A stretch of 64,000 bases of DNA, taken from assembly GCF_030345095.1 (NCBI RefSeq), contig NZ_CP128360.1:496001-560000 (forward strand), written 5' to 3'. A program made the translations under genes and the position numbers. Origin of the DNA: Solwaraspora sp. WMMA2056 (lineage in GTDB: Bacteria; Actinomycetota; Actinomycetes; Mycobacteriales; Micromonosporaceae). Below, in pieces: positions 31,235 to 40,754 of the stretch (within the stretch, counting starts at the first letter, position 1; every line of letters starts with the position of its first letter). The notes beneath the pieces were generated by a model that saw nothing but the letters and a program-made list of their open reading frames with translations, was not told the DNA's origin and did not search any database.

Positions 31235-32811
31235 GGACCGCCCCCACGTGCGTGGGGAGGACGAAGCCGCCGCGCTCGACGAAGCTGCCCGCGCCGTCTC
31301 AGCGCGTCGTCGACACTACGGAGCACCCCCACGTGCGTGGGGAGGACTCCGCCGGCGAGGTGAACCGGAACGTGTCCAACGGAGCACCCCCACGTGCGTG
31401 GGGAGGACACCCGGGCGGTGCCGGCGAGGACGTCGACGTGCGGAGCACCCCCACGTGCGTGGGGAGGACGATCACTCTGCCTTCTGCACTGGGCTGCATG
31501 GCGGAGCACCCCCACGTGCGTGGGGAGGACGTGACAGCATTCCCGTACAGCCGGGTGATGTCCGGAGCACCCCCACGTGCGTGGGGAGGACCGGATCTCA
31601 CAGTGTTCGCCACCACGCAAGACCGGAGCACCCCCACGTGCGTGGGGAGGACGGCGAGGAGCTGCCCGCCGGCGGCAGCGTCACCGGAGCACCCCCACGT
31701 GCGTGGGGAGGACGGCGTGCACGTCGCGTGGTCTCCGTGGCCGTGCGGAGCACCCCCACGTGCGTGGGGAGGACGCGAAGACAGGGGTGATGCACGGCGT
31801 ACATCACGGAGCACCCCCACGTGCGTGGGGAGGACCGAAAGACGAACCTGCCCACAACCCCGCACGCCGGAGCACCCCCACGTGCGTGGGGAGGACTCGA
31901 ATCAGCCTCCGTCGCCGCCAAGGCGTTCCGGAGCACCCCCACGTGCGTGGGGAGGACCTGATCGCCTGGGCGGTCACCGTGGCCGCGCACGGAGCACCCC
32001 CACGTGCGTGGGGAGGACGTGAACGGGCTGATCACCGGCAACACGGCGCACGGAGCACCCCCACGTGCGTGGGGAGGACAGCAGCCGCACGGCCCAGTCG
32101 ATGCGCCGGTACGGAGCACCCCCACGTGCGTGGGGAGGACGAGGCCGAGGCTGCGGCGGAGGAGGTCGAGACCGGAGCACCCCCACGTGCGTGGGGAGGA
32201 CACGTCGCCGACCCCGTCCACATCCCACACCGACGGAGCACCCCCACGTGCGTGGGGAGGACTCGCAGCCGAGCCGGCGCGCCGTGGCGTGCGTCGGAGC
32301 ACCCCCACGTGCGTGGGGAGGACTACCAACGCAGGTCGGCTCCGAAACGATGGGGCGGAGCACCCCCACGTGCGTGGGGAGGACGCCTTGCGTGCCTTGC
32401 GGCCCTTCACTGCCTCCGGAGCACCCCCACGTGCGTGGGGAGGACCTGCCGAGAGACGCCGCCCAGCAGTTCGGCGACGGAGCACCCCCACGTGCGTGGG
32501 GAGGACGTGTCCAGCTCGCGGGCGAGGCCCTTCAGTGCCGGAGCACCCCCACGTGCGTGGGGAGGACCGAGGCCGGCGGTGACGATCTGACGGTCGCCAC
32601 GGAGCACCCCCACGTGCGTGGGGAGGACGATGTGCCTGGTGCGGGGGTTCCTTGTTGGCTAGGAGCACCCCCACGTGCGTGGGGAGGACCCGTGGGCGAC
32701 GGCGTACGCAACCCAGTCGGCCGGAGCACCCCCACGTGCGTGGGGAGGACTTGATCAGCCTGCGGATCGCGGCCACGTCCTGCGGAGCACCCCCACGTGC
32801 GTGGGGAGGAC
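31235..32811 (-). CRISPR. Type I-E CRISPR array, 26 repeats, no cas genes in window
   Basis: A 28-bp repeat (29 with a nearly constant preceding C) recurs every 61 bp from 31320 to 32784, giving 25 near-identical copies plus a degenerate one at 31235. The stem arms are CCCCACG and CGTGGGG. Read on the minus strand the repeat ends in GTGCTCCG, matching the eight-base handle position of E. coli type I-E repeats, so transcription should run leftward with the leader on the right. The repeat at 31235 differs at two bases and is followed by a 57-nt spacer, as expected of a trailer end. The other spacers are 32-33 nt and all differ. The array stops next to an IS256-type element. Confidence 0.97.
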
Positions 32812-32843
32812 AGGGATTCGCCGATGCGCTGGTCGAGTGGAAC

Positions 32844-32850
32844 CGAGCAC
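32844..32850 (-). CRISPR. Possible remnant of the next repeat, cut by the IS256 element
   Basis: At almost the expected spacing after the last full repeat, GAGCAC (32845-32850) matches the start of the next repeat and runs straight into the insertion sequence end at 32851. Spacing is one base short and only six bases match, so this is suggestive only. Confidence 0.45.
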
Positions 32851-32901
32851 GGGTCTGTAAGAACAACGGTGTAACTCCTGACAAGCAAGGAGACACCTCT
32901 G

Positions 32902-33764
32902 ATGACGGTCATCACGGACACAGCGGATACTTCCGCAGTGCCTGAGAACGAGACGACGAAGCGGTCCCGGAAGCCGGCCACGGCGGCGAGTATGGACCCG
33001 GCCCTGGTCAACCAACTGGTCGCCCAGGCCCGTGAGCAGGGCCTGCAACTGTCCGGTGAGGGCGGGCTGCTGCAGCAGCTGACGAAGATCGTGTTGGAGT
33101 CCGCCCTGGAAGGCGAGATCACCGACCATCTCGGCTACGACCGGCACGACCCGGCGGGCGACGGTAGCGGGAACTCCCGCAACGGGACCCGGACGAAGAC
33201 CGTGCTGACCGATGTCGGACCGGTGCAGGTCAGCGTGCCCCGGGACCGGGCGGGTTCGTTCGAGCCGACGATCGTGCGTAAGCGCCAACGCCGCCTGTCC
33301 GGTGTGGAGGACCTGGTGCTGTCGCTGTCGGCGAAGGGCCTGACCACCGGTGAGATCAGCGCCCACCTCGCCGAGGTGTACGGGGCGGAGGTGTCCCGCC
33401 AGACGATCTCCACGATCACCGACAAGGTCCTCGACGGGATGGCCGAGTGGCAGAACCGGCCGCTCGATCCCGTCTATCCGGTGATCTTCCTGGACGCGAT
33501 CCACGTCAAGATCAGGGACGGTAAGGTCGCGAACCGGCCGATCTACGTCGCGCTCGCGGTGACCGTCGACGGCCACCGGGACATCCTCGGGCTGTGGGCC
33601 GGTGACGGCGGTGAGGGCGCCAAGTTCTGGCTCCAGGTACTCACCGAGCTGCGTAACCGTGGTGTCGAGGACGTGTGCATGGTGGTGTGTGACGGGTTGA
33701 AGGGTCTGCCCGAGGCGATCGGGCAGACCTGGCCCCTGGCGGTGACCCAGACGTGTGTCGTGCA
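32902..33764 (+). pseudogene. IS256-family transposase, 5' part
   Basis: This starts at an ATG preceded by AAGGAG and encodes the first 287 or so residues of a mutator-type transposase. It includes the first catalytic Asp in VIFLDAIHVK and the second in MVVCDGLKG. The frame is cut after TCVVH by the RIT element. Joining 33764 to 38646 restores VVHLLRASF and a 438-residue protein, the family's normal length. Confidence 0.92.
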
Positions 33765-33795
33765 TTACTCCGAGGTCGCGGTTATGCCGATGCCG
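33765..33795 (+). repeat. Left terminal inverted repeat of the RIT element
   Basis: These 31 bases, starting TTACTCCGAGG and ending GATGCCG, are the exact reverse complement of 38583-38613. A further ATCGGCATAAT copy lies about 50 bp inward, forming a subterminal repeat. Confidence 0.95.
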
Positions 33796-33847
33796 GGTGC
33801 TCCGGCGCTGTTCAGTGGCGGTGCTCGTGGTCGTCGGATCGGCATAA

Positions 33848-34825
33848 TCACAGGGCTTCGAGGAAGGCGAGCAGGCGGTCGGGCGTGCGGTAGCGGCCGG
33901 GTTGTGTGCCGGTCGGAGTTGTTCGGTCGAGGGCTCGCTGCTTGAGTTCCATGTCCGCACGTAGGTAGATCTGAGTCGTGGCGACGCTTTCGTGGCCGAG
34001 CCAGAGCGCGATGACGGTGATGTCGACGCCGGCGTGCAGCAGGCGCATGGCGGCGGTGTGCCGCAGGACGTGTGGGGTGATGGTTCTTGCGGTCAGTCGG
34101 GGGCATCGCGCGACGTAGACGGCGAGCCGTTGGGCGAGTGCGTCGTGGCTGAGTGCGCCGCTGCGGTTGGTCGGGAACAACACGTCGTCGGGTTCGCCGC
34201 CGCGTTCGGCCATCCAGGTTCGGAGCAGGTTGACGGTGTCGGTGGTCAGGGGGGTGGCGCGCCGCTTGCGGCCCTTGCCAAGGCAGCTGACATGGGGTCC
34301 TGCGCCGAGATGGGTGTCCCGGCGACGCAGCGCGGTCAGTTCGCCGGCGCGAAGCCCTGTCTGGACGGCCAGGTGCAGCATGGTGTGGTCGCGGCGGCCG
34401 GTGCGGGTGGCGCGGTCGGGCTGGTCGAGCAGTTCGTTGGTTTCCTCGTCGGTGAGGAACTCGATGACGCGGTGATCGCCTCGTTTGGCGGGGATGGCCA
34501 ACACTCGGGTGATGTCGTCGCTGTGCTCGGGGTGGTGCAGCGCGGCGAAGGCGAACAGGGAGTGGATCGCGGCGAGGCGGGCGTTGCGGCTGCGGACGCT
34601 GTTGGCCCGCTGTCGTTCCAGGTGATCCAGGAACGCGGCGACTGTGGTCGCGTCCAGGTCGGCGAAGTCCAGCTTGGACAAGGACTTGGCGGTCCTGGTG
34701 CTGGCGAACTGCAGCAGCATGCGGATGGCGTCGCGGTAGGCGGCGACGGTGTGCGGACTGGCCTGCCGCTGCGCGATCAGTCGGTTGGTGAAGAAGGCCT
34801 GCACCGTGGTCGCGACGGCGGTCAT
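33848..34825 (-). CDS. RIT tyrosine recombinase, third gene
   Basis: This 325-residue tyrosine recombinase has an N-terminal SAM-like DNA-binding domain (SPHTVAAYRDAIRMLLQFA) and a catalytic domain. The residues are Arg in TGLRAGELTAL, His-x-x-Arg in TPHVLRHTAAM, His in LWLGHESV, and the nucleophile Tyr in TTQIYLRAD. Its ATG at 34825 lies in an ATGA that would overlap the second gene's natural stop. In RIT elements all three proteins are thought to act together in integration. Confidence 0.93.
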   Translation of the reverse strand: MTAVATTVQAFFTNRLIAQRQASPHTVAAYRDAIRMLLQFASTRTAKSLSKLDFADLDATTVAAFLDHLERQRANSVRSRNARLAAIHSLFAFAALHHPEHSDDITRVLAIPAKRGDHRVIEFLTDEETNELLDQPDRATRTGRRDHTMLHLAVQTGLRAGELTALRRRDTHLGAGPHVSCLGKGRKRRATPLTTDTVNLLRTWMAERGGEPDDVLFPTNRSGALSHDALAQRLAVYVARCPRLTARTITPHVLRHTAAMRLLHAGVDITVIALWLGHESVATTQIYLRADMELKQRALDRTTPTGTQPGRYRTPDRLLAFLEAL

Positions 34826-35750
34826 GGCCGTGGTCCTGACGCCGATCGCAGCCTTGGGCGGCCTCGGCCATCAGCTCGGGCGCGGCGTGGAGGTACCAGT
34901 ACGTGTTCTTCGGCGACACGTGCCCCAGGTAGGTCGACAGCAGAGGTAGCCGGGTGTCGATGTCGGCGCCGTCGCGATACCAGCCCAGCAGGGTGCGGAC
35001 CGCGAACGTGTGGCGTAGGTCGTGCGGCCGGGGACGGTATGACGGCGAGCGTGGGGCCAGCCCGGCCCGGCGGGCGAGCCGGGCGAAGGTCACGCCGACG
35101 TTGAAGACGAGCAGGCGGGTGCCTGCCTGCGACACAAGCAGGGCGGGGCTGACCGGGGTGGGGAACCACGCGTGGCGGATCGCGCGGTAGGCGGTCAGCG
35201 CGGCGACGGTGCTGTCGTGCAGCGGCAGCAGGCGCTGCTTGCCGAACTTGGCGTGCCGCACCACCAGGACACCGGCGTCGGCGTCGAGGTCGCTGTCATC
35301 GGCGGCCAGCGCCTCGCCCAGACGCATGCCGGTGACCGCGAGCAGCCCGATGAGCGTGCGCATAGTAGCGGTGCGCAGCGGTGTCTTCAGCGACTCGGTC
35401 TGCTGTAACAGGGCGGCCAGGTCGGCGTCGGAGTAGAGGTAAGGCACCGCCCGGCGTCCCCGGCTTGGCAGGAGTCCGGGCGGGACGACCGGCACCGTCG
35501 GGTCCAGGGTGTGCAGGTAGGCGGCGAAGCTGCGCACCACGGACAGCCGCATTCCCAGCCAGCCCGGGCTGGCCGGCTCCGGCAGCTTCGCCCAGGCCAA
35601 CGCATCATCGACGGTGAACGCGGTGCGGCCGAGGTCGTCGAGATAGTCGAGGAACTGCACGATCAGCTTCTCATCGCGGCGTAGCCCATAGCCCAGCCCG
35701 CGCCGCAGCTTCAGGTAGTCGGCCAGCGCGGCCCGCAGATCGGTGGTCAT
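34822..35750 (-). CDS. RIT tyrosine recombinase, second gene (3' end needs a frameshift)
   Basis: The gene starts at ATG 35750 in an ATGA overlap with the first recombinase stop. Catalytic residues are intact: Arg in TGMRLGEALA, RPHDLRHTFAV, His in YLGHVSP, and Tyr in KNTYWYLHAA. After ELMAEAA the frame does not stop at the ATGA of the third gene; it stays open to 33765, adding an Arg/His/Pro-rich tail of about 350 residues. A one-base backward slip at GCCGCCCAAGG would restore PRLRSASGPRP and stop at 34822. The end given here assumes that natural stop. Confidence 0.85.
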
Positions 35751-36952
35751 CGAGTCACCTCCTGCGGCCAAGGCATCGCCAGGCTGCGCAGCGCCGCGAT
35801 GTCGACCTTGGCGTAGATGGCCGTGGTCAACACGCTGCGGTGACGCAGCACCTGGCCGATCTCGGTCAGCGGCGCCCCCGCGGCCAGCATCGCGGTCGCC
35901 GCGCTGTGCCGCAGCCGATGGGCGTAAACAGTGCCCAGCCCGGCGCGGTGCCCGGCCGCGTTGACCACCTGCGTCACGCCGATGCTGGTCAGTCCACGAC
36001 GCGGGGCCTTCACCCGGACGAACACGCACCGGTCCAGCGCGCCCGCAGGCCGACCCGCTTCGAGATAGTCGACCAAGGCCTGCCCGACGTCGACCGGCAG
36101 CGGCAGGCGGTCACGGTGGCCGCCCTTGCCGCGCACCACGACCTCGCCCTGCCTCCAGTCCAGATCGTCGAGCTGCAGCCCCGCGACCTCACCGGCCCGC
36201 AGGCCCATACGCGCCAACATGGTCAGGATCGCCCGGTCCCGCAGCCCGTTCACGCTGTGCGTGTCGCACGACGCGAGCAGTGCCGTGACCTGCTCTGCGG
36301 GTAGCCCTTTGGGCAGACCCGACGCGCGGTGCGCGACCTTCGGCACGGACACCGACAGATCGGTGTCGGCGACGCCGTCGAGGAACCAGAACCGCAGCAG
36401 CGCCCGCAACGCCGACGCGCGACCCTGAACGGTCTTGGGCGCCAACGAACGGGTCAACCCGGACAGGTACGCCGTCACCGTCCGCGCCGACAGCCTCGCC
36501 GCGTCAACGCCGTCGCCGACCATCACCGTGGACACGAACGGTCGCACAGACACGACGTAGAACTCGGCGACGTCAGGCTTCACCCCGCGTTCCGCCAGCA
36601 AGTACGCCCGGAACCGCTCCACCAGCGCATCGCCAGCCGACACAGCGGCAGGCGGCTCGGCCGGCGCCGCCTGCACGTCACGCAGGTACGACAGCAACGG
36701 GTCCAGTGACCGGGATGAACGGCAGGCACGGTAGCCGGCCGCCGCACGAGCCGCGACGTAACGACGCGCCACCTGCCCCGTCAACCCCGCCGCACCCAGC
36801 CCTTCACCCGCCAGCCACCGGCTCAGGTGCGCCACCAGCGTCATCCAGTTACGCCGCGTCGCCAAGGTGTAGCCGCGCTGCTCAAGATGCGCGGCGTACC
36901 CCGCCGCGTGCGACTCCAAAGGCCCGACCACCCGGGCTCCCAGAAGATCCAT
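35747..36952 (-). CDS. RIT tyrosine recombinase, first gene
   Basis: This 401-residue recombinase has Arg in MGLRAGEVAGL, the HRLRH box (YAHRLRHSAATA), His in VLRHRSVLT and Tyr in TTAIYAKVD. I chose ATG 36952, nine bases after GGAGGGG; upstream GTG and TTG codons up to 36970 are in frame. It is the longest of the trio, as usual. It is the first gene of a three-gene overlapping operon reading toward the left end of the element. Confidence 0.93.
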   Translation of the reverse strand: MDLLGARVVGPLESHAAGYAAHLEQRGYTLATRRNWMTLVAHLSRWLAGEGLGAAGLTGQVARRYVAARAAAGYRACRSSRSLDPLLSYLRDVQAAPAEPPAAVSAGDALVERFRAYLLAERGVKPDVAEFYVVSVRPFVSTVMVGDGVDAARLSARTVTAYLSGLTRSLAPKTVQGRASALRALLRFWFLDGVADTDLSVSVPKVAHRASGLPKGLPAEQVTALLASCDTHSVNGLRDRAILTMLARMGLRAGEVAGLQLDDLDWRQGEVVVRGKGGHRDRLPLPVDVGQALVDYLEAGRPAGALDRCVFVRVKAPRRGLTSIGVTQVVNAAGHRAGLGTVYAHRLRHSAATAMLAAGAPLTEIGQVLRHRSVLTTAIYAKVDIAALRSLAMPWPQEVTR

Positions 36953-37004
36953 CACCACCAACCCCTCCAATCAAAGGAGAGGCCAGCGTCAACCCGCCGC
37001 GATT

Positions 37005-38525
37005 GTGACTGGATAGGTGCGTGGGACCTTGGAATACCGCAAGCGCGCGAGGTGGGTCAGGCGGTTGTGGGGATCCAGGGGCTGCCGGCGGCGGCTCGGG
37101 TGAGTGCGTCGAGCATGTTGATGCCGTGTCGGGTGGCGGTGGCGGTGTAGCTGCGGATCGCGGCGAAGTGTTCGGCTCCGGTCATGGTGCGCATGCTGCC
37201 GGAGACCTTGATCCGGAGTTTCGGCATGCGGATGGTCCGCTCGGCCGGGTTGTTGTCGAACGGCACGGCCGGGTCGGTGACGAAGCGTAGGTAGTCGGCG
37301 CGTCGGTCCCGTAGTCGCACGAACAGGGCGTGGTACTTGCGGTGCAGCTTGTCGGTGCGGGTGGCGGTGGCTGCGGCGCCGAGCACGACGGCCGAGCGCA
37401 GCAGGTGGGTCTGTTCGGCGAGGTCGGCCGGGTCGGGTTCGCAGCCGTCGGCGCGGGCCGTGACCGTCAGGCGGTTCAGGTGCCGCAGGGCGTCGATGGC
37501 CTGGCCGGCGAGGTCGGCGACCTGCCCGGTGGCGGTGTCGACCACGTAGACCAGTTCGCGTAGGACGTGGGCGTTGCACAGGGCGTGGACCGCGTCGGTG
37601 TAGGTGTCGTACGGGGCCCACGCGTCGTGCACGGCGGTGCCGGTGTATCCGGGTAGCACGCCGGCGTCGTCCATTGCGGCGGTGCCGCGTCGGCGGTGCA
37701 CGGTGAGGAGCACGTCGGTGGGTGTGGAGGCGGAGTGCGGCCAGGCGAGGCGGCCGTCGACGCGTATGCCGGTCTCGTCGAAGTGCGCGACCGGGGCGTG
37801 GCGGACGCGGTCACGGATGACGGGGAGCACCGTGTCGATGACGCCGAGGGCGGTGCGGGTGACCCAGGCGGTGATGGTGGCTGGCGCGACGGGCAGGCCG
37901 AACAGGTCACGGATCGCGTCGGCGGTGCGGCCGATGGACAGGAACTGTCCGTGGAGCAGGTAGACGCCGATCGCGGCGATCCGTGGTCCGTAGGCGGCGG
38001 GCGCGGTGGCCCCGGCGGGTGTCGCGGCGGTGGTGTGGTGCCCGCACGGGCAGGCGACGGTGACGATCTGGTGCTCGGTCACCACGACCCGGGGCTGGGG
38101 GATGTCGAACACCTGCCGGCGGGTGACCGTCACCTCGGCGGGGTCGGTCAGGCCGTCACCGCAGCCGCCACAGATGTCCGGCACGTGCCGGACGACCACG
38201 TCCGGATCGGCCACCTGGGACAGGGTGGTGCCCTCGCCCCCGGCCGGGCGGCCCGGCCGGCGACCCGAACGGCCCCGCAGCGACTTCGGCGCCGGTTTGG
38301 CCAGCCCGTCGCTCGACGGCGGTTTCGACGAGTTGCTCGACGACTGCTTCAACCGGGCCTCAAGCTCAGCGATCCGCGTCAGCGCCTGCTCCAGCCGTGC
38401 GGCCAGCCCGGCGTTCAACGCCAGCAGCTCGTCATACGACGGCGGCGGATCGGCGGGCACGGCTGGTCAACCTACCAGCATCCACAGCAGACAGCACCAC
38501 CGGGATCAGGAACCTATCCAGTCAC
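37005..38525 (-). mobile_element. IS66-family element nested in the RIT element
   Basis: The terminal inverted repeats start GTGACTGGATAGGT at 37005-37018 and end with its exact complement at 38512-38525. The flanks are the 8-bp direct repeat CCGCGATT at 36997-37004 and 38526-38533, the duplication length typical of IS66. The 1521-bp element carries only tnpC; the accessory tnpA and tnpB genes of larger IS66 elements are absent. Confidence 0.95.
37057..38460 (-). CDS. IS66-family transposase TnpC
   Basis: This 467-residue transposase has an N-terminal coiled coil (LNAGLAARLEQALTRIAELE), the IS66 zinc-finger-like segment (CGGCGDGL...CPCGHH), and DDE residues in AHFDETGIRV, VHDAWAPYDTY and FDNNPAERTIR. 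It appears intact. It fills nearly all of its element. Confidence 0.95.
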   Translation of the reverse strand: MPADPPPSYDELLALNAGLAARLEQALTRIAELEARLKQSSSNSSKPPSSDGLAKPAPKSLRGRSGRRPGRPAGGEGTTLSQVADPDVVVRHVPDICGGCGDGLTDPAEVTVTRRQVFDIPQPRVVVTEHQIVTVACPCGHHTTAATPAGATAPAAYGPRIAAIGVYLLHGQFLSIGRTADAIRDLFGLPVAPATITAWVTRTALGVIDTVLPVIRDRVRHAPVAHFDETGIRVDGRLAWPHSASTPTDVLLTVHRRRGTAAMDDAGVLPGYTGTAVHDAWAPYDTYTDAVHALCNAHVLRELVYVVDTATGQVADLAGQAIDALRHLNRLTVTARADGCEPDPADLAEQTHLLRSAVVLGAAATATRTDKLHRKYHALFVRLRDRRADYLRFVTDPAVPFDNNPAERTIRMPKLRIKVSGSMRTMTGAEHFAAIRSYTATATRHGINMLDALTRAAAGSPWIPTTA

Positions 38526-38582
38526 CCGCGATTATGCCGACAACACCAGAACGGACCTGAACAGCCGCACCGGCATACGCCG

Positions 38583-38613
38583 CGGCATCGGCATAACCGC
38601 GACCTCGGAGTAA
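38583..38613 (-). repeat. Right terminal inverted repeat of the RIT element
   Basis: This is the exact reverse complement of 33765-33795. It is followed without a gap by a 32-bp palindrome that carries the same core. Confidence 0.95.
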
Positions 38614-38645
38614 TGCACGTTATGCCGATATCGGCATAACGTGCA
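38614..38645. repeat. 32-bp perfect palindrome at the RIT right border
   Basis: The left half TGCACGTTATGCCGAT is followed by its exact complement. The outer five bases on each side match the target (TGCAC/GTGCA), and the inner 22 bases are two head-to-head copies of the terminal-repeat core GTTATGCCGAT. It looks like a recombination footprint or the preferred attachment site. Confidence 0.93.
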
Positions 38646-39099
38646 CCTGCTGCGGGCGTCGTTCCGGTACGCGGCCCGTCAGCACTGGGACGCGATCGCG
38701 AAGGCGTTGCGGCCGGTCTACACCGCAGCGACCGAGCAGGCCGCGCAGCAGCGGTTCCTGGAGTTCGCCGAGGTGTGGGGCGACCGGTACCCGGCGATCG
38801 TCAGGCTGTGGACCAACTCGTGGGCGGAGTTCGCGCCGTTCCTGGCCTTCGACGCCGAGATCCGCACGATCGTGTGTTCCACCAACGCAATCGAGAGCGT
38901 CAACGCCCGCATCCGCAAGGCGGTCCGCGCCCGTGGCCACTTCCCGAACGAACAGGCCGCGCTCAAGTGCGTGTACCTGGCGGTGATGTCCCTGGACCCC
39001 ACAGGCACCGGACGCAAACGCTGGGCCATCCGCTGGAAGGCCGCCCTGAACGCCTTCGAGATCGCCTTCGACGGCCGACTCCGTACCGGACGCAAGTAG
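38646..39099 (+). pseudogene. IS256-family transposase, 3' part
   Basis: This continues the interrupted transposase in frame (LLRASFRYAARQHW) and contains the catalytic Glu in STNAIESVNARIRKAV. It ends at TAG 39099, 38 bp before the right terminal repeat. The nested insertion alone appears to have inactivated the gene. Confidence 0.92.
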
Positions 39100-39137
39100 C
39101 TATTTCACCTCAGTTACACCGAAAACTTGACAGAGCC

Positions 39138-39300: not shown

Positions 39301-39495
39301 CTACTCCAGCAACTCGATCGCAGAGACGGGGCAGCAGTCGGCAGCAGCCGCCGCCGCGGCCCACTTCTCGGCGCTCGGGCTGAGGTCCCGCGGCAGTACC
39401 AGCATCGTGTCGGGGTCCTGGTCGAAGACCGTCGGCGCGATCGCCGCACACATTCCGGAGCCGATGCACCTGTCGGTGTGCAGGCGAATCTTCAC
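39301..39495 (-). CDS. 3Fe-4S type ferredoxin, partner of the adjacent P450
   Basis: This 64-residue ferredoxin begins at a GTG (VKIRLHTDRCIGSGMC). The cysteines Cys10, Cys16 and the DCCPVSAI pair fit a 3Fe-4S cluster of the type that feeds actinomycete P450s. Its GTG overlaps the P450 stop as GTGA (39492-39495), so the two are coupled. It may also serve the NRPS-cluster P450s, which have no ferredoxin of their own nearby. Confidence 0.93.
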   Translation of the reverse strand: MKIRLHTDRCIGSGMCAAIAPTVFDQDPDTMLVLPRDLSPSAEKWAAAAAAADCCPVSAIELLE

Positions 39496-40754
39496 CGCGA
39501 TGGTTCCTCGACCGGCGCTGACGAGCGGGGCAGCACCGCGTCCCAGCTCACGAGAACCTCGGTGGGGCCTCGTACCGCCGAATGGGTCCGGAAGGGGGTC
39601 TCCTCGATCGGCCGGGCCAACCGTAGCGACGGCACCCGCCGAGGCAACGTCCGGAGCATCGTGGAGAGTTCCATGCGGGCGATCTGTCGACCGACGCACG
39701 CGTGCGCCCCGTAGCCGAAGCCGACGTGCGCGCCAGGCTGTCGAGCTATGTCGAAGAGATCCGCGTCCGGGTGCAGATCGGTGTCCCGATTCGCGGACTG
39801 CACGGCGGCGACCACCAGGTCTCCCGCCGCGATCTTCTCCCCCCCGAGTTCGGTGTCCTCGGTGGCCTGCCGCAGCAGCCCGATCGCCACGCCGAGATAG
39901 CGGACGATCTCGTCCGCCGCAGTGTCGGCCAGCGCGGGTTCGGCGACCAGCCGGTCCCAGTCATCCCGCCGGTCGAGGAGCGCGAGCAGGCCGTGACTCA
40001 GCAGACTGGCTGTGGTGTCGAAGCCGGCGATGAGGAGGGCACTGTTCATGCCCACCAGCTCGTCGTCACTCAACGGCCGATCGGTCTCCGCGCTGTGCAG
40101 GATCATCCGGCTCAGCACGTCGTCCCCGGGGTTCGCCCGGCGCTCCCTGATCTGGGCGTAAAGATATCCGTACAGCGGGCCGAGCGCGCGGCGCGCGTCC
40201 TCGATCTTGACGTCGTACCGGAAGACGGCAGCGGCAGCCTCGTGCAAGAGGTGCCGCTCCTCCGGAGGGACCCCGATCAGTTCGGCGATGACCGCGCTGG
40301 TGACCCAGTTCGAGAAATGGGTGTGCAGGTCGACCGGAGGGGCCACCTCGACAAACCGGTCGACGGCCTCCTCGACTACCTCGTCGATGAAGGGCTGAAG
40401 TTCGGCCAACCGGCGGGCGTGCGAGACCTGCGGTGCCAGGCTGCGACGCATCCGGATGTGCTCAGGGCCGTCAAGTCGCGAGAATTGCTGCTTCATCGGC
40501 GCATCGTGGCGAAACGCCGGGAGAATGTGCGCCACAGGAGAGGGTCGCGAGCTGAATCGGCGACCGTCACCCAGCACCTCTCGCACGTCCGCATAACGGC
40601 TGACGAGCCACGCGTTGACTCCGGTGGGGCAACTGACCTGAACGACCGGCTGTTCGCGCCTCAGGCGCGCGTACTCCGGATGCGGGTGGAAAGGAAACTT
40701 TCCCTCGTCAGGCAATGGCATTGGAGGCAACTGAGCAGGCGCAGCATCAACCAT
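39492..40754 (-). CDS. Cytochrome P450 (fourth) with coupled ferredoxin
   Basis: This 420-residue P450 has the I-helix IAGFDTT, ExxR in DEIVRY, and heme loop FGYGAHACVG with Cys353. It is the first gene of a P450-ferredoxin pair. Upstream, 109 bp separate it from the IS5 left end at 40864. It probably belongs to the partly destroyed locus to its right (transporters and prenyl synthase). The substrate is unknown. Confidence 0.93.
   Translation of the reverse strand: MVDAAPAQLPPMPLPDEGKFPFHPHPEYARLRREQPVVQVSCPTGVNAWLVSRYADVREVLGDGRRFSSRPSPVAHILPAFRHDAPMKQQFSRLDGPEHIRMRRSLAPQVSHARRLAELQPFIDEVVEEAVDRFVEVAPPVDLHTHFSNWVTSAVIAELIGVPPEERHLLHEAAAAVFRYDVKIEDARRALGPLYGYLYAQIRERRANPGDDVLSRMILHSAETDRPLSDDELVGMNSALLIAGFDTTASLLSHGLLALLDRRDDWDRLVAEPALADTAADEIVRYLGVAIGLLRQATEDTELGGEKIAAGDLVVAAVQSANRDTDLHPDADLFDIARQPGAHVGFGYGAHACVGRQIARMELSTMLRTLPRRVPSLRLARPIEETPFRTHSAVRGPTEVLVSWDAVLPRSSAPVEEPSR

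Follow-up and report, generated by a model that had tools for sequence, protein, structure and literature searches.

A RIT element nested in an IS256 transposase gene of Solwaraspora, with 6-bp cores, an end palindrome and a proposed attachment at conserved codons of mobile genes

In the genome of Solwaraspora sp. WMMA2056 (7.0 Mb, one contig), a RIT element, composed of three tyrosine recombinase genes between inverted repeats and itself carrying an IS66-family element, is inserted in the conserved (C)VVH codons of an IS256 transposase gene. The stretch analysed, termed the window, comprises 64,000 nucleotides of contig NZ_CP128360.1 (assembly GCF_030345095.1, positions 496,001 to 560,000; G000:C1:496001-560000). 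With somewhat better than even confidence, the mobile unit is considered to consist of the gene body together with an adjoining 20-bp palindrome, and to have hit IS256 from a circle with two attachment sites. The wider proposal, for which confidence falls a little short of even, is that RITs are motif-homing hyperparasites, which would attach at conserved, often catalytic, codons of mobile-element genes (IS256, IS21, IS701, IS66, serine recombinases, group II intron maturases and tyrosine recombinases) via a two-site circle formed round the palindrome, each insertion preserving, as a record, 6 bp from an earlier target.

The interrupted IS256-family element extends from 32851 to 39137 (plus strand), as read from its imperfect inverted ends. 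Both parts of its transposase were recognized as Mutator/IS256 DDE transposase, part 1 at 32902-33762 (plus strand; PF00872 positions 7-255, 3.1e-86; NF033543 259 bits, cut-off 150) and part 2 at 38641-39096 (plus strand; PF00872 255-372, 3.2e-32; NF033543 107.4 bits, cut-off 150). They comprise 287 and 152 codons and have one valine codon in common, which yields the 438 residues of the restored enzyme proposed in a preliminary description of this DNA. Between them lies the RIT body (33765-38613, minus strand) with perfect 31-bp terminal inverted repeats, each containing two TTATGCCGA-like boxes; these ends, noticed earlier, are part of a perfect 37-bp inverted repeat (33759-33795 and 38583-38619) made up of 31 bp of element and a 6-bp core. 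The left target core (CGTGCA) occupies 33759-33764. Reading rightward from the right repeat, the sequence continues with the inner core (TGCACG, the reverse complement of CGTGCA; 38614-38619), a perfect 20-bp palindrome taken as part of the RIT (TTATGCCGATATCGGCATAA; 38620-38639), the right or outer target core (CGTGCA; 38640-38645) and then IS256; palindrome and adjoining cores together form a perfect 32-bp palindrome. Neither palindrome nor cores figured in the preliminary description, which also passed over the altered ritB frame and the missing exact duplication around IS256 reported below. The empty IS256 copy that it had suggested looking for is present in the same genome as a remnant, L012, whose target is uninterrupted and has the core CGTGCA once; compared with the sequence flanking the RIT in the window, L012 is identical over 26 bp to the left of the core and shows 2 mismatches in the 84 bp to its right. 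A second empty site (L167), in a paralogous IS256 of a congener (G079; 88 % identical over the query), likewise has CGTGCA once.

The three recombinase genes overlap, as previously described, and PF00589 is found in each: ritA (35747-36970, minus strand, 407 residues, 2.5e-28), ritB (33765-35750, minus strand, catalytic domain within 34824-35750, 2.3e-21) and ritC (33848-34825, minus strand, 325 residues, 7.4e-31, and by alignment). Three adjacent PF00589 genes on one strand, terminal inverted repeats of about 30 bp and a palindrome at the end thus mark the element as a RIT. The ATG of ritB at 35750 overlaps the end of ritA, by 4 bases; its frame passes the usual end by about 350 residues, to a stop at 33765-33767. 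The search for related RITs, likewise suggested earlier, led to a copy in G079 that is 99.4 % identical over 3246 bp and whose ritB has the usual end, overlapping ritC; by this comparison the window ritB is altered near its 3' end. The G079 copy resides in a different IS256 copy, at the same codons and in opposite gene orientation, and has the same 20-bp palindrome; the palindrome hence goes with the RIT. No second RIT was found in the genome of the window, where four other recombinases showed 29-32 % identity.

The IS66-family element of 1521 bp (37005-38525, minus strand) has identical 14-bp ends and a transposase at 37057-38460 (NF033517 272.8 bits, cut-off 180, 4.7e-81). The 8-bp duplication reported around it is present as CCGCGATT at 36997-37004 and 38526-38533, and transposase and duplication together conform to the IS66 family, members of which have accessory genes tnpA/tnpB. 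The G079 RIT, which is devoid of IS66, has a single copy of CCGCGATT at the corresponding point. The identities and the nesting of the three elements are therefore as first described, borne out by profile matches and by two empty sites (L012 for the RIT, G079 for IS66).

Cores and palindrome were compared in a sample of 96 loci, i.e. 79 named loci from the best 80 of at least 559 confirmed relatives, 16 stretches from a family search and the window, with 26 further matches left out of the end analysis. After removal of three loci without flank for the scan and three duplicates, 90 remained; 18 of these lacked an inverted repeat of at least 24/26 in the scanned zones and were dropped, five of which (L039, L058, L079, L091, L125) still show a box-type palindrome. 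Of the remaining 72, nine had too little flank and L106 lies at a contig edge. Among the resulting 62 genome loci, 57 possess the palindrome (56, plus L121 with one at both ends); the repeat of L109 is probably not a RIT end. Palindrome and terminal box are separated by 6 bp in 56/56 loci, a figure that is partly circular since the choice of the palindrome used box similarity at offset 6. In an independent set of plasmids (10 fetched of 60 listed among 357 matching records; 8 with repeat ends of at least 21/24), a 10/10 palindrome was detected in four of the eight (L179, L184, L185, L187), all at 6 bp in a scan allowing offsets 2-11 with ties given to 6. A search of 354 family genomes located the exact 20-bp palindrome in 9 of them, against none for the reversed pattern used as a control, and all eight readable hits adjoin a RIT-type terminus by eye, the ninth lying at a contig end. 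The three cores, complete in 54 loci, are all equal in 19, equal in left and outer only in 10, in left and inner only in 10, in inner and outer only in 5, and all different in 10. Left and inner core agree at positions 5 and 6, beside the element, in 53/54 loci each, and positions 1 (39/54) and 4 (42/54) are the most variable. The element-adjacent bases also agree between left and outer core in 52/54 each, and between inner and outer core in 52 and 51.

The side of the palindrome is set by the target and is independent of gene orientation. Relative to the genes, 23 of the 56 loci have the palindrome on the ritA side and the other 33 have it on the ritC side. Eight classes of loci with insertion at the same site comprise 33 loci, six of them copies in one genome of Kibdelosporangium philippinense; classes and target strand were assigned by the author from translations and scans, not blind. 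Within each class the palindrome keeps to one side of the target gene, in all 33 loci, and the gene side is mixed (10 ritA, 23 ritC), with both orientations in five of the eight classes. Outside the classes stand L067, L081, L089, L108 and L115, on account of another site, two palindromes or a masked flank.

Targets were assigned by Pfam and NCBIfam scans of the flank pieces and by reading of the junctions in 46 of the 56 loci, 37 of which concern mobile-element genes. IS256 accounts for 11 loci (of which L115 is hit at a different motif, PF00872 position 230), serine recombinases for 7 (six of them from a single genome, with two of these six scanned), IstB for 5, DDE_5/IS701-like transposases for 4, group II intron reverse transcriptases for 3, and IS66 and IS5-like for 2 each; an rve transposase, IS21 istA and a tyrosine recombinase were hit once each. 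The other nine assigned targets are DUF3489 (4), RadC, an N6 methylase, a histidine-kinase ATPase, MarC and AAA_22. Several weak calls were retained, namely IS256 for L098 (by motif; NCBIfam E 0.086), L108 (by reading only) and L038 (by similarity to the window copy), L093 just below the Pfam cut-off, and L111 (istA), L129 (tyrosine recombinase) and L041 (maturase) below curated cut-offs. Ten loci have no assigned target (L050, L065, L078, L087, L089, L092, L096, L101, L118, L132); among the flank pieces tried, Pfam gave no family for L065, L078, L087, L092, L101, L132, L050 and L118, and NCBIfam gave nothing for L065, L092 and L101 and weak nuclease matches far under cut-off for L118. By eye only, L101 appears IS110-like and L050 DEAH-ATPase-like. 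Within a target family the same protein position is hit across phyla: PF00872 position 255 in six IS256 loci including the window (256 in L093), IstB 160 in 5/5, IS66 154 in 2/2 and DDE_5 91 in three loci, with L123 consistent. This suggests that RITs choose the same conserved motifs in other mobile genes again and again. The earlier remark that both an exact target and a secondary insertion are seldom observed in RITs is not supported as regards the exact target, since 33 of the 56 palindrome loci have their target site in common with at least one other. Mapped onto a RitC tree with 45 loci, of which 11 were pooled as 'other', target class needs 17 changes compared to a shuffled mean of 29.5, and none of 200 shufflings was as low; target choice is therefore inherited but switches.

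Recent spread is apparent in K. philippinense, where six RIT copies with flanks were available. The 3368-bp RIT body is free of mismatches among four copies (L068, L072, L073, L074), and both gene orientations occur among the copies. The target flanks differ by 0-21 mismatches in about 1.6-1.7 kb in some pairs and by about 9-12 % in others, and are mosaic, one flank of L072 being near that of L068 and the opposite one identical to that of L073. L069 has target flanks identical to those of L074 over about 1.6-1.7 kb, with opposite gene orientation. L069 and L076 harbour a letter-identical 5796-bp RIT with a 2.4-kb insert, named IS21-type from its translation by eye, and a 6-bp duplication. The two targets cease to resemble each other no more than about 50 bp from the junction; both are serine recombinases, L076 by its own scan and L069 through its similarity to the scanned L068. 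RITs with nested inserts may accordingly move as a unit, and gene conversion between copies could do the same. Seven matches to the target were found in this genome; the three examined (L163, L164, L165) carry a RIT end and palindrome, and the coordinates of the remaining four correspond to L069 and L072-L074. A scan for inverted flanks (83 entries, three of them duplicates, with at least 150 bp of flank on each side) revealed two elements without palindrome between inverted homologous pieces that end at the junction in one and the same frame: L126 (38 % over 239 residues) and L182 on Aromatoleum aromaticum plasmid 2 (71 % over 230 residues, annotated tyrosine recombinases). The scan picked out L081 as well, because of its two palindromes. 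Judging from sequence, the layout of L126 and L182 is what would be expected if the second core recombined with another copy of the target.

From these patterns we infer a circle, its crossover points and the roles of the three enzymes. The mobile unit, gene body plus palindrome, would be excised or copied as a circle by the three Rit recombinases, with the palindrome placed between the two termini. Such a circle would hold two inverted crossover sites, each consisting of box, 6-bp core and palindrome half, and either could recombine with a target core flanked by conserved motif sequence. The left half of the target would always join the gene-body end and its right half the palindrome half, such that the palindrome side would be set by the target and gene orientation left free. 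The two core bases beside the element end nearly always match, the other four may differ, and the inner core would retain the sequence of an earlier site. By analogy to CTnDOT, the core pattern may be the expected trace of strand exchange with limited homology. The anatomy predicts the exact circle junction, the crossover bases and the target sites. Apart from the partly circular gap figure, several observations weigh against this two-site circle. No circle-type or tandem junction was detected in 32 RIT-bearing genomes, using one pattern with 3 mismatches, by which divergent boxes are missed. The palindrome is not universal, being absent from L064, L085, L099 and L126 and, in the plasmid set, from L181, L182 and L183 and, by eye, degraded in L180. 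Palindromes at both ends (L081, L108, L121; L108 begins at a contig end) are not simply explained, and in ten of the 54 loci all three cores differ. Homologous recombination or gene conversion between copies also operates in K. philippinense and may explain some of the identity, and confidence in the mechanism was reduced because of the mosaic flanks. Finally, the window copy itself may be dead or inactive, given the altered ritB frame and the location of IS66 between ritA and the terminus.

Orientation freedom could also arise without a two-site circle, by insertion in a fixed orientation and a subsequent flip in place between the inverted left and inner core sites. These sites are about 3.3 kb apart, the inner core equals the left one in 29/54 loci (all equal in 19, left and inner only in 10), and the pair L069 and L074, with opposite gene orientations between identical flanks, also fits a flip. 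A flip alone, however, leaves unexplained the inner cores that are identical to neither outer core (G079: GGTGCA, GATCCA, CGTGCA) as well as the elements between two target pieces, and as the sole account it is regarded as rather unlikely; flip and two-site circle can both be true together. Less probable still is that the palindrome folds the end into a hairpin or cruciform and that the element moves as folded single-stranded DNA, like integron cassettes. Termini, inner core and palindrome do form perfect inverted repeats in many loci, among them the 32-bp palindrome of the window, but inner and outer core are equal, and thus able to pair, in only 24/54 (all equal in 19, inner and outer only in 5).

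It is scarcely credible that the palindrome was a pre-existing sequence or mini-element used by RITs as target, an idea prompted by its position outside the terminal repeats, between the cores. The empty sites L012 and L167 are without it, and a pattern search of the 354 genomes for solo palindromes as prior targets was unsuccessful, none of the 8 readable ones lacking a RIT-type terminus by eye. L170, L171 and L172, which speak for this idea, combine palindrome and RIT-type terminus, with no rit genes found within 1.5 kb. The L171 terminus (G001:C1:3506142) is situated about 14 kb from a ritC gene at 3520065; L171 may be a RIT that carries cargo or has taken up a large nested insert. Very improbable, too, is that IS256, RIT and IS66 travelled as one composite, in which case the nesting would give no order. 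The 5796-bp RIT of K. philippinense with its IS21-type insert, which may move as a unit, is in favour of joint travel; the G079 RIT, nearly the same yet without IS66 and in another IS256 copy and orientation, argues against it. The triple unit is thus disfavoured, and a unit of RIT plus IS66 may remain, even if the whole 4.8-kb unit was not encountered elsewhere in the genomes searched, where the only close copy found is that of G079, without IS66. The 'clear order' of events claimed earlier accordingly holds in that the RIT entered IS256 and IS66 entered the RIT. It does not extend to whether IS66 came in before or after the jump of the RIT into IS256; either may apply, because the Kibdelosporangium RIT and its insert are letter-identical at two targets.

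Members of the IS256 family generate target duplications of 8-9 bp; an exact scan revealed no exact 8- or 9-bp duplication at the ends of the window element. Its left end abuts a CRISPR array (window 31235-32850) with 26 repeats of 28 bp and a period of mostly 61 bp, which breaks off about 7 bases into the next repeat, at the start of IS256. No CRISPR repeat of this kind was found elsewhere in the genome, and the array does not resume. Because of this position of the left end at a repeat and the missing continuation, a flanking deletion may have occurred, the end of the array being lost with the IS256 event. Genes for a ferredoxin-like protein and a cytochrome P450 adjoin the right end of IS256 (window 39301-40754, minus strand).

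RITs were described as overlapping tyrosine recombinase genes ritA-B-C of about 3.5 kb with terminal inverted repeats of about 30 bp, and an 'overlapping palindromic sequence' at their ends was already mentioned (Van Houdt et al. 2012, PMC3414803; PMC2864759); the window element agrees with known RITs in gene trio, repeat ends and end palindrome. Insertions inside IS66 tnpA, a Tn6049-related transposase and radC are on record (PMC3414803; C. metallidurans CH34 genome, PMC2864759). The RIT section of Van Houdt et al. 2012 regards repeats and palindrome as unlike usual binding sites, contains no core anatomy, and considers it puzzling that four strands should be served by three enzymes (PMC3414803). 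To the knowledge of the authors of PMC10214605, transposition of RITs has not been reproduced in the laboratory, and in Table 1 of that article (2023) RIT target specificity, empty site and movement all bear the entry 'not tested'; movement and the need for three recombinases are unsettled in the relevant passages of PMC3414803 and PMC10214605. The 6-bp cores, a palindrome on one side only, as set by the target, the freedom of orientation and the targeting of the same position were not found in the RIT passages of PMC3414803 and PMC2864759, and Ricker et al. 2013 may cover part of them.

The RIT is hence a known kind of element, and the advance lies in its anatomy and in motif-homing. Insertion at conserved transposon codons would explain how targets are found in distant bacteria; it also points to sites that targeted integration tools might use. 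Inteins and homing introns likewise insert at conserved codons of other genes. CTnDOT and Tn916 resemble RITs in a short overlap, partial homology to the target and coupling sequences brought from the last site, and differ in having one integrase with directionality factors and no inverted double core. GInts and Tn554 have other gene sets, and to our knowledge no such palindrome. They share with RITs several tyrosine recombinase genes and target specificity (PMC10214605). The strand-biased circularizing integrative elements (SE) come close, as they also employ several recombination proteins, a 6-bp crossover spacer and site-specific insertion, and the 6 bp of the circle and those of the target end up at different ends, as in RITs (PMC10214605). 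In SE, however, motifs C and C' meet across one spacer, and the passages of that article on these elements describe no 20-bp palindrome with two cores (PMC10214605).

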